Positions 2,129 through 6,181 of a stretch of DNA of 6,181 nt are shown piece after piece. Numbering within the stretch: the first letter of the stretch is position 1; every line of letters begins with the position of its first letter. Source of the DNA: a bacterium (lineage in GTDB: Bacteria; Coprothermobacterota; Coprothermobacteria; Coprothermobacterales; JAADFF01). The translations under genes and the position numbers were made by a program. The notes beneath the pieces were generated by a model that saw only the letters and a program-made list of their open reading frames with translations, ran no database searches and was not told the DNA's origin. The stretch covers positions 1 through 6,181 of the forward strand of contig JAMORD010000115.1 in the NCBI GenBank assembly GCA_027063755.1. Direction: 5' to 3'.

Positions 2129-3226
2129 CTATTTATATTTGCTGTAACTGTTTACTATTTCAAATAACTTATCGTCAAGGAGGAGTCCTCCCCAATCTCC
2201 TTCTCCTCCCCATTGCTCGTGGGAAAAGTCTTCTTTTAGTGTATCTAAATGGCTAATATCTTTGATAATTCTATCTTTAAACATGTATACCGATATACCT
2301 TGCCAGTTCTGGACCAGTTTGGTAACTGTATGTTTTTTCAGACCAAAGAACTCTGTGAATAAGCGGTGTAGTCCTTCTTTTTTTACGCTTGCTATTGCCC
2401 ACAACATTTGAAGAAAGGCCTGACTATGGGTGCTGAAAAGGATGTGTTTGCCCTTTGCAATTGCTTCCAATAGTAATGAGAAGATATATACTTGGGCTTT
2501 AGTGTGTAAACCAAGTTCTGGTTCTTCTATAAAGATGTATTGATATTTTCCTGTGCCAAGTAGTAGCCCAAATAATAATGAAAAAGCCTCTCTTTGTCCT
2601 GTACTCCAAGCTGATACTGGAACAAAATTGTTTTCTATCTCTCCCACTACTTTAGGTCCTGACGGTGTTTGTACGAGTTTTATAAACATAGGTGTACCAG
2701 TAGATGTGTATATACTGGCCAAGACTTTATTAAATGTGGTGTAAGATATACGACTTTTTTTTGACCAATGTTTCGTCAGAAATATGTTTTCGTCTACTGG
2801 CATGTTACCTAATCTTTTCAACATGATATCTGTAAACCTTCTAACTACGAAAGGATAGTCTGGGATTGCCTGGGCCGGTGGATACCATCCGTACAGTAAA
2901 AGCATATTTCTATGGGCTGGGATATATAAAATTTGTTCTTTTTTTCCGTTTTGCTTAGCATGCTTGAGAAGATCGTCTGGCTGTTCTACTATAGATGTGC
3001 CGAAGAAATTCGTTAGCATTTTGGGGATAAGTGAGTCGTCTATTAGTTTACCCCATATGTGTTTATATTGATTTTTTACAAATGTAAGCTGTTCAAGTAG
3101 GTAGATTGTCATAGAGGCAATAGATTTTCCTGAGCCTTGGGGACCCACAAACACTGTTAGTGGTTTGAGCTTTATATGTAAAGGTTTATCCCAAATTGAG
3201 ATACCGTCTATAACAATATCATTCAC
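2129..3226 (-). CDS. SMC/ABC-type AAA15 ATPase, solitary, likely defence-associated
   Basis: A 365-residue cytoplasmic ATPase. Visible elements in order are: an N-terminal strand pair (LKPLTVFVGPQGSGKS) with Walker A GPQGSGKS at 28-35; the YIPAHRN segment at 101-107 typical of the AAA15/OLD-like group; an ABC-type signature SAWSTGQREAF at 205-215; Walker B YIFIEEPELGLH at 230-241; and the H-loop LFSTHS at 263-268. There is no room for a long coiled coil, no TOPRIM nuclease domain and no transporter partner, so it is neither a complete OLD/GajA nuclease nor a transport ATPase. The start is GTG at 3224-3226, chosen because GAGGTG (3234-3239) lies 7 bases upstream and the Walker A distance is right. 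The next gene follows after two bases. AAA15 ATPases with a small second gene recur in phage-defence systems such as PARIS; assigning this one to defence is inference from architecture. Confidence 0.9.
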   Translation of the reverse strand: MNDIVIDGISIWDKPLHIKLKPLTVFVGPQGSGKSIASMTIYLLEQLTFVKNQYKHIWGKLIDDSLIPKMLTNFFGTSIVEQPDDLLKHAKQNGKKEQILYIPAHRNMLLLYGWYPPAQAIPDYPFVVRRFTDIMLKRLGNMPVDENIFLTKHWSKKSRISYTTFNKVLASIYTSTGTPMFIKLVQTPSGPKVVGEIENNFVPVSAWSTGQREAFSLLFGLLLGTGKYQYIFIEEPELGLHTKAQVYIFSLLLEAIAKGKHILFSTHSQAFLQMLWAIASVKKEGLHRLFTEFFGLKKHTVTKLVQNWQGISVYMFKDRIIKDISHLDTLKEDFSHEQWGGEGDWGGLLLDDKLFEIVNSYSKYK

Positions 3227-4692: not shown

Positions 4693-4713
4693 GTTCTCAC
4701 CTCCCGGTGTTGT

Positions 4714-4722
4714 ATCATATCA
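4714..4722 (-). promoter_or_regulatory. Extended -10 promoter element of the NifX-like operon
   Basis: On the minus strand TGATATGAT (4722-4714) matches the extended -10 form TGnTATAAT at all but one base of the hexamer. The predicted start near 4707 gives a short leader carrying GGGAGGTGA ahead of the ATG at 4692. No strong -35 is visible, as is usual for extended -10 promoters; the palindrome at 4728-4742 occupies that place. Confidence 0.5.
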
Positions 4723-4727
4723 CATGG

Positions 4728-4742
4728 TATAGTAAAACTATA
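4728..4742. promoter_or_regulatory. Palindrome in the divergent intergenic region (candidate operator)
   Basis: TATAGTAAAACTATA is a 6+3+6 perfect inverted repeat midway between the NifX-like gene and the restriction-modification genes. It covers the -35 area of the minus-strand promoter and contains a -10-like TATAGT on the + strand (4728-4733), so a bound protein could affect both directions. It is AT-rich, so chance occurrence is possible. Confidence 0.4.
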
Positions 4743-4762
4743 AATGCTTATAGGGGGAAAAG

Positions 4763-4846
4763 ATGAAGGTAGGGTTGTGGACTAAGAGGAGGAAAAGAAG
4801 TTCTTCAATAATTTTCTTACTGCTGGTGTTGATATTGCTAAGTTGA
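4763..4846 (+). CDS. 27-codon ORF overlapping the nuclease start (coupled leader or frameshifted N-terminus)
   Basis: An ATG at 4763 with a good Shine-Dalgarno AGGGGGA (4752-4758) opens a 27-residue frame, beginning MKVGLWTKRRKR and continuing with a leucine-rich hydrophobic tail. Its TGA (4844-4846) overlaps the ATG at 4846 of the nuclease frame as TGATG. Two readings fit. It may be a real basic-plus-hydrophobic peptide that feeds ribosomes into the nuclease by coupling. Alternatively, it may be the true nuclease start put out of frame by a one-base change near 4784-4800. I favour the second: the overlapping frame 1 from 4786 reads EEEKKFFNNFLTAGVDIAKL straight into the nuclease and looks like natural protein, and one extra A near 4785 would join them as MKVGLWTK-EEEKK. 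Confidence 0.5.
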   Translation: MKVGLWTKRRKRSSSIIFLLLVLILLS

Positions 4847-5595
4847 TGTATAGAGTAAATGGCAAGTATATGGCTTATTATCCTAAGGACTATAATGGGA
4901 CTAAAGATACGATGCAAAGTAGAAATTCATATATAGGAGATTACACAGAGAGCTGGTTTGCCAATATTCTTCAACATCTTCCTGTAATTAAACAGAGAAA
5001 ATTAAAAGTAGAAATAGGCTATAAAGACGATGAAGTCTTGTCTGCTCTCTCGCCGGTGGATGTTGCCATCTTGTCAGATGATAGGGAATTGGTTTTAATC
5101 TTTGAAGTGAAGATGTCTATAGTTAATAACTACTGTTATGTTGATGGTAATATTCAGTGGTGTGGTGACATGACAGAACATACTGGTAATCCCGGTCTAC
5201 ATAGAAGTGACTCTGTGCTCAAGGCTATTGCTAAGGTATTATCCATACATGCTAGGGAGTTCTTGTTAGCAAGGAGAAGTGTTCCTATTATTGTGGTAAC
5301 TAATGCCCCACCTGCTCCTTTGTCCGCTGAGAGATTGGAGATGTCTTATAGGGTTGGTGCTATTCAAGGAGTATGGAATGTTGGATTTGATGATGGTAGT
5401 TATTTTGAAGGTTACAGGCATGTAACCTCGCTTGAGGATATAAACAACCTAGTTAAGTATCTTGTAGAGAAAAAGGGATACTTCTTTTCTGGATATAAGA
5501 CCTCCGATGAGTTGAAAAACATTATTCTTGAAGCAGTAAACGGCCCAGATGATAAAATCGTTGAGCGATTTTTACAATCTATCAGAGGTGAATAA
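4843..5595 (+). CDS. Putative Type II restriction endonuclease, PD-(D/E)XK fold
   Basis: Candidate restriction enzyme, inferred from its catalytic pattern and from the methyltransferase that follows one base after its stop. Counting from TTG 4843, a PD-(D/E)XK site is visible as Asp73 in SPVDVAIL and Glu88-Val-Lys90 in LIFEVKMS, with Glu36 in a preceding helix (YTESWFANIL). Further conserved-looking stretches are GNPGLHRSDSVLKAI (116-130) and PIIVVTNAPPAP (148-159). I do not recognise the specific family or target site. The start is uncertain: TTG 4843 and ATG 4846 both lack a Shine-Dalgarno sequence, while the frame is open back to 4786 without any ATG/GTG/TTG. Initiation may therefore depend on coupling to the 27-codon ORF, or the gene carries a frameshift that hides about 28 N-terminal residues (intact length would be about 277). 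The coding sequence is AT-rich. No controller (C) protein gene is seen upstream. Confidence 0.8.
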   Translation: MMYRVNGKYMAYYPKDYNGTKDTMQSRNSYIGDYTESWFANILQHLPVIKQRKLKVEIGYKDDEVLSALSPVDVAILSDDRELVLIFEVKMSIVNNYCYVDGNIQWCGDMTEHTGNPGLHRSDSVLKAIAKVLSIHAREFLLARRSVPIIVVTNAPPAPLSAERLEMSYRVGAIQGVWNVGFDDGSYFEGYRHVTSLEDINNLVKYLVEKKGYFFSGYKTSDELKNIILEAVNGPDDKIVERFLQSIRGE

Positions 5596-5596
5596 A

Positions 5597-6181
5597 GTGG
5601 GAACCAAAACTTGGTCATTTGGAGTGTCTGGTAGGTACGGGCATGATTCATCCTCGTTTTATGGAAGAAGACTGTATGGCGGAATAGATATTCCTAAGAG
5701 TGTGGAATATGTAGAAAACCCTCTTCCAGAAACTGTTATTGATAAAATTTTCTTGCATTCCAGTGAACATATGGAAGAGTTGCCAGATAGCAGCGTGCAT
5801 CTTATGGTCACCTCACCTCCTTATAATGTAGGGAAGGATTATGATCAAGATATGTCATTAGATGAATATTTAGAATTTTTATATACGGTTTTTCAAGAAG
5901 TGTATAGGGTGCTTGTGCCTGGGGGGAGATTGGCAATAAATGTAGCCGGTTTGGGAAGGAAACCATATATTCCTCTCCATCACCTTGTTGGGATGTTACT
6001 TACGGAAATTGGTTTTATTATGAGGGGAGAAATTATTTGGTATAAGGCTGCTGCTGGTGCATCTTCTACTGCATGGGGAACATGGAAAAGCCCAAAAAAT
6101 CCTGTGCTTAGAGACTTTCATGAGTATATATTGGTTTTTTCTAAAGATTCTTTGAGCCTACCGGATAGAGGTAAAGAACCT
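5597..6181 (+). CDS. DNA amino-methyltransferase (m4C/m6A, beta-class order), 3' end missing
   Basis: Site-specific DNA methyltransferase, the protective half of the restriction-modification pair; 195 residues are visible and the frame runs off the window. Catalytic motif IV is TSPPYNVGKDYD at 72-83, followed by an EVYRVLVPGGRLAINVA strand-turn-strand (101-117) and the GEIIWYK (144-150) and SPKNPVLRDFHEYILVFSK (165-183) blocks. These are typical of SPPY enzymes in which the catalytic half precedes the AdoMet-binding FxGxG motif, expected beyond base 6181. SPPY most often means N4-cytosine, but N6-adenine cannot be excluded. The start is GTG 5597, one base after the nuclease stop, with AGAGGTGA (5584-5591) inside the nuclease gene's end. 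The N-terminal ~30 residues, rich in Gly, Ser, Tyr and Arg, are an extension before the domain and may contact DNA. Methylase is translated after nuclease from the same message. Confidence 0.93.
   Translation, partial: MGTKTWSFGVSGRYGHDSSSFYGRRLYGGIDIPKSVEYVENPLPETVIDKIFLHSSEHMEELPDSSVHLMVTSPPYNVGKDYDQDMSLDEYLEFLYTVFQEVYRVLVPGGRLAINVAGLGRKPYIPLHHLVGMLLTEIGFIMRGEIIWYKAAAGASSTAWGTWKSPKNPVLRDFHEYILVFSKDSLSLPDRGKEP

Follow-up and report, generated by a model that had tools for sequence, protein, structure and literature searches.

Does the restriction nuclease gene in this DNA follow a short, translationally coupled reading frame that tunes its level, or has a gene that once ran in a single frame been broken near its 5' end? 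The window, by which we mean the whole stretch of 6,181 nucleotides analyzed, is contig C115 of the G000 assembly (1.5 Mb in 251 contigs, 88% complete), and carries a putative Type II-like restriction-modification pair in which a nuclease gene is followed, on the same strand, by a methyltransferase gene. The initial annotation described a nuclease N-terminus split between two frames that meet at a TGATG stop-start overlap, and offered as explanations a sequencing error, a real one-base deletion rescued by reinitiation, a -1 recoding event and a coupled microprotein that tunes the nuclease level.

Layout of the nuclease start and its partner gene

The stretch AGGGGGAA (4753-4760, + strand) is a Shine-Dalgarno-like candidate for the ancestral nuclease start, judged from the sequence and from a shuffle test that included such a motif; GGGGGA lies upstream of ATG 4763 and the leader is purine-rich. 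As initially annotated, and exactly to the base, this ATG serves a 27-codon open reading frame, MKVGLWTKRRKRSSSIIFLLLVLILLS (4763-4846, + strand), whose TGA stop (4844-4846) overlaps the ATG at 4846-4848 within TGATG (4844-4848). From 4786 the nuclease frame remains open up to its stop at 5593-5595, and a TAA at 4783 closes it on the 5' side. The claim that it has no start with a binding site also held: no ATG, GTG or TTG occurs in frame from 4786 up to 4843, TTG 4843 and ATG 4846 are the sole in-frame starts near the nuclease front, and no Shine-Dalgarno sequence precedes ATG 4846. The latter opens the 249-codon remainder of a PD-(D/E)xK nuclease (4846-5595, + strand) at family position Phe27, where it replaces an invariant residue (LFY to LMY). 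A net change of one base at the break would give the 277-codon nuclease that had been proposed, and past the break the frame runs for 269 codons with no other stop. The region from the divergent upstream gene to 4763 holds no controller gene, as previously stated, and most genes after the methyltransferase, on contig C133, have transport functions.

The partner gene starts at GTG 5597, one base past the nuclease stop, and its 5' part extends to 6181 (+ strand). It encodes a predicted N4/N6-type DNA methyltransferase (Pfam N6_N4_Mtase, 3e-19; PADLOC MTase_II, 7.8e-78). Contig C133 (L129) overlaps window positions 6031-6181 (151 bases, 1 mismatch) and supplies the remainder of the gene, including the motif DPFAGSGTT and the stop codon. 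Since the frame is complete across both contigs, the predicted methyltransferase frame is shown to be intact, and its product can go on methylating the chromosome. The single mismatch in the contig-end overlap hints at a strain mixture. Elsewhere in the window, an AAA ATPase gene (2129-3226, - strand) matches the PADLOC candidate-defence model PDC-M56A (E 3e-42) and is followed by a gene whose 182-aa product matches no PADLOC model (1578-2126, - strand); the two possibly form a defence unit near the restriction-modification pair.

The nuclease family and the position of the break

Neither single-sequence scans of the genome and viral collections nor tblastn on plasmids and phages detected relatives of the nuclease, which matched no Pfam, NCBIfam or PADLOC model above cut-off; sequence searches of the PDB were negative, and an exact-DNA search of the viral contigs for the 5' end of the gene gave no match. 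Searching 98 genomes yielded two intact relatives, both with a methyltransferase of the window's type downstream, and a three-sequence alignment of these with the window nuclease was needed to find the family in the genome collection, where it comprises 80 homologous loci (L005-L084) from many phyla; the same alignment found no member in the viral contigs. This widespread PD-(D/E)xK family, encoded beside a methyltransferase and lacking a model, merits consideration for a family model of its own.

The N-terminus of the family follows a very regular pattern, M-x-(L/F)-W-x7-FF-xx-A-(L/M)-...-PEQLFY, which lies in one frame in 76 of the 80 loci, one further locus being cut by a contig end. The mean majority frequency is 0.78 over the first 27 family positions and 0.79 over the catalytic part, and W4, E9, F12, F13, F27 and Y28 show little or no variation. 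The initial annotation had taken homologues beginning MKxGxWTKEEE or similar as support for a frameshift, and such openings were indeed found (M-x-LW-x7-FF, as in MSLWNNETEIQFF and MELWSKDVEREFF). At the corresponding position, none of the 80 loci shows a TGATG, and a conserved 27-aa frame with this overlap, which had been named as evidence against a frameshift, is absent from the homologues.

In the window, the same pattern is divided between two frames. MKVGLW matches the homologues in the frame of ATG 4763, with its Trp at 4778, and EEEKKFF matches them in the nuclease frame, which also holds E9 (4792), FF (4801-4806) and L26. W and FF are 20 bases plus one apart, which corresponds to exactly seven codons once a net difference of one base is allowed, and this family spacing combined with a one-base shift argues that 4763 was the ancestral start and that the frame was broken just after it. 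Furthermore, the residues encoded from 4786 on match the family at invariant positions, which suggests that this segment formed part of the translated nuclease until recently. Among dinucleotide shuffles of 4693-4800, only 0.18% had both a family-spaced W in the shifted frame and an ATG with a Shine-Dalgarno-like motif. Relative to its family, the nuclease gene is thus almost certainly frame-broken. The interval that holds the net one-base break (4781-4792, + strand), with W in one frame and E9 and FF in the other, joins the predicted ancestral 5' end, MKVGLWTK (4763-4786, + strand), which completes W-x7-FF once one base is allowed for, to a nuclease-frame remnant, EEEKKFFNNFLTAGVDIAKL (4786-4845, + strand). 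The conserved remnant covers family positions 7-26 and is mostly predicted N-terminal helix (pLDDT 94-96). Comparison with the homologues shows ATG 4763 to be the predicted ancestral start of a nuclease in a single frame; the predicted 27-aa peptide, with no counterpart in the family, is an out-of-frame by-product of the break.

Two hallmarks of a Type II restriction-modification system are found here, namely a nuclease gene beside a methyltransferase gene in a pair conserved across genomes, and the PD-(D/E)xK catalytic residues (D, E and K of SPVD...IFEVK, invariant in a 36-row alignment). A third, an intact, expressible nuclease frame, is lacking, the frame being broken at about 4781-4792. 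With M-x-LW-x7-FF, the true start of this unmodelled family becomes visible, allowing correct annotation and making disrupted copies recognisable.

Consequences and origin of the break

We consider it probable that the locus is a restriction-modification pair with a frame-broken nuclease that yields no full-length product, next to an intact methyltransferase. A net one-base break between nuclease codons 5 and 9, about seven codons in, would carry translation from ATG 4763 into the wrong frame and stop it at 4846, so that full-length nuclease would not be made; reinitiation at the overlapping ATG 4846 would give at most a low level of the 249-residue form, and the intact methyltransferase would keep methylating the chromosome. 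Termination-reinitiation at TGATG overlaps couples translation in tested gene pairs and is well documented (PMC6728339), so small amounts of truncated protein may be made. Starting at 4846, this product could have 249 residues at best and would be without the conserved N-terminal helix, which AlphaFold2 models place at pLDDT 94-97 and which is included in structural alignments to AgeI, SgrAI, Bse634I and NucC that extend to model residue 1. The predicted 249-residue form is probably inactive or weak, and the cell probably makes little nuclease or only a shortened one.

Three alternatives assign a function to the arrangement. Rescue of a real break by reinitiation at TGATG, so that a shortened nuclease is still active but made in smaller amounts, fits the position of ATG 4846 exactly at the junction and the intact catalytic core. 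However, the helix with the conserved W4, E9 and FF would be lost, ATG 4846 has no Shine-Dalgarno sequence, whose removal weakened reinitiation in 4 of the 5 E. coli gene pairs (PMC6728339), and coupling in restriction-modification overlaps is not automatic, as none arose from the PvuII overlap (PMC2997769). The stop-start overlap of a coupled pair is present, but the upstream frame is not a conserved gene of its own and no homologue has the arrangement. The reinitiation that the initial annotation proposed thus stands as a possible event, with a truncated product, and the functional rescue appears unlikely; its more elaborate form, in which the break turned the N-terminus into a short leader and TGATG sets a low, tolerated dose of shortened active nuclease, seems very unlikely. 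A programmed -1 frameshift over AAGAGGAGGAAAAGAAG, which would yield the full protein, agrees with the direction and spacing of the break and with the Shine-Dalgarno-like AGGAGG inside the stretch, but inspection of 4784-4800 revealed no X-XXY-YYZ heptamer in the zero frame, and the homologues need no recoding, being in a single frame at 76 of 80 loci with the split not conserved. We regard it as highly improbable. Scarcely any credence is due to a genuine, conserved and translationally coupled 27-aa microprotein: despite its good Shine-Dalgarno sequence and TGATG overlap, it opens with eight residues of the nuclease N-terminus, goes on with conserved nuclease codons read out of frame, and has no counterpart in any homologue. 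Neither of the latter two proposals of the initial annotation finds support, as both arrangements are missing from the homologues.

A more serious alternative is an assembly or sequencing error, with the break existing only in the metagenome contig and the organism possessing an intact 277-aa nuclease. Apart from the break the frame is perfect and the catalytic residues are kept, and sequencing error is a recurrent alternative for the restriction-modification frameshifts listed in REBASE; 109 of 138 re-sequenced Brucella frameshift cases were errors (PMC3488263). The window nuclease is far diverged: it keeps 60% of the near-invariant family positions, a share that is 90% or more in the members ranking next in divergence and 80% in its own methyltransferase, it exceeds the divergence predicted from the methyltransferase (0.335 vs 0.397, residual s.d. 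0.021, by extrapolation), and in the tree it sits on a very long branch whose exact place is unsure. Because so diverged a frame has no further stop, either the break arose very recently on that branch or it is an error; likewise, 269 codons with no other stop and with the catalytic residues kept suggest a recent break or a gene that is still useful. Against an error, no run of identical bases at the site exceeds 4, and comparison of 182 G000 genes with those of a congener revealed, after inspection, no single-base break in conserved genes over 56,000 aligned residues, although breaks near gene ends would escape this test. This makes a random consensus error in the nuclease gene unlikely (under about 1.5% by the rule of three, gene-end breaks being missed) and favors a real mutation. 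The extra divergence of the nuclease relative to its methyltransferase is also in keeping with decay. Between the two explanations initially proposed, a natural mutation is thus the likelier, and we hold it to be so with reasonable confidence; an error keeps a smaller but appreciable chance.

The true breaks in that comparison were a 10-base, frame-changing deletion in an otherwise highly conserved chemotaxis-receptor-like gene (L134:850-950) and a decayed gene (L174:6369-7429), interrupted by several stops and shifts of frame, of which the congener has an intact copy. The motif CTAAGARGAGG, present at the window break and at that of L134, might have marked a site of recoding or error shared by both, but this was rejected because the L134 break is a 10-base deletion relative to the congener; three further apparent breaks, in L143, L189 and L199, are best explained as shadow ORFs or non-coding starts.

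Within the family, nine loci have a disrupted nuclease gene with an intact methyltransferase gene (L025, L061, L069, L070, L074, L076, L078, L081 and L082) and two show the reverse (L007 and L046), a small contrast (two-sided sign test, about 0.07) among loci that may hold sequence errors themselves. The disrupted members are scattered on the tree, which points towards recurrent loss of the nuclease. In L074 (2960-3010, Melioribacteraceae) the frame breaks at a T10 run in the N-terminal FF codons, possibly a phase-variable tract or a homopolymer error, and L082 (2975-3001, Spirochaetales) carries a TAG stop in frame where the family has its conserved N-terminal Trp. For the window, we infer a recent natural mutation with an effect on activity, that is, ordinary decay of the restriction gene (or possibly a sequence error) rather than a new regulatory device.

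Comparison with known systems

At the level of fold, the model of an intact homologue (L079) resembles BsaWI, AgeI, SgrAI, Bse634I and NucC (Z about 9-11 over 154-179 residues, at 10-14% identity), a likeness from which we claim no membership; the model of the window nuclease itself gave weak Foldseek matches (best E 0.018). The overlapping C and R genes of PvuII-type systems likewise have a short frame that ends at the nuclease start, but there the upstream frame is a regulator gene (PMC2997769), whereas here it is the displaced N-terminus of the nuclease. The closest parallel is with Type II systems whose nuclease gene is disrupted: the two genes are adjacent on one strand, the nuclease gene broken and the methyltransferase gene intact, and they encode a PD-(D/E)xK nuclease and a SAM-dependent N4/N6 methyltransferase, although this nuclease family has no Pfam, NCBIfam or PADLOC model. 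Restriction-modification genes in REBASE with a single frameshift resemble it in that one partner is frameshifted while full-length orthologues exist elsewhere (PMC3488263). That survey described broken methyltransferases beside intact nucleases, whereas in the window it is the nuclease that is broken, which would make this locus a further case of a restriction half lost and a methyltransferase kept.
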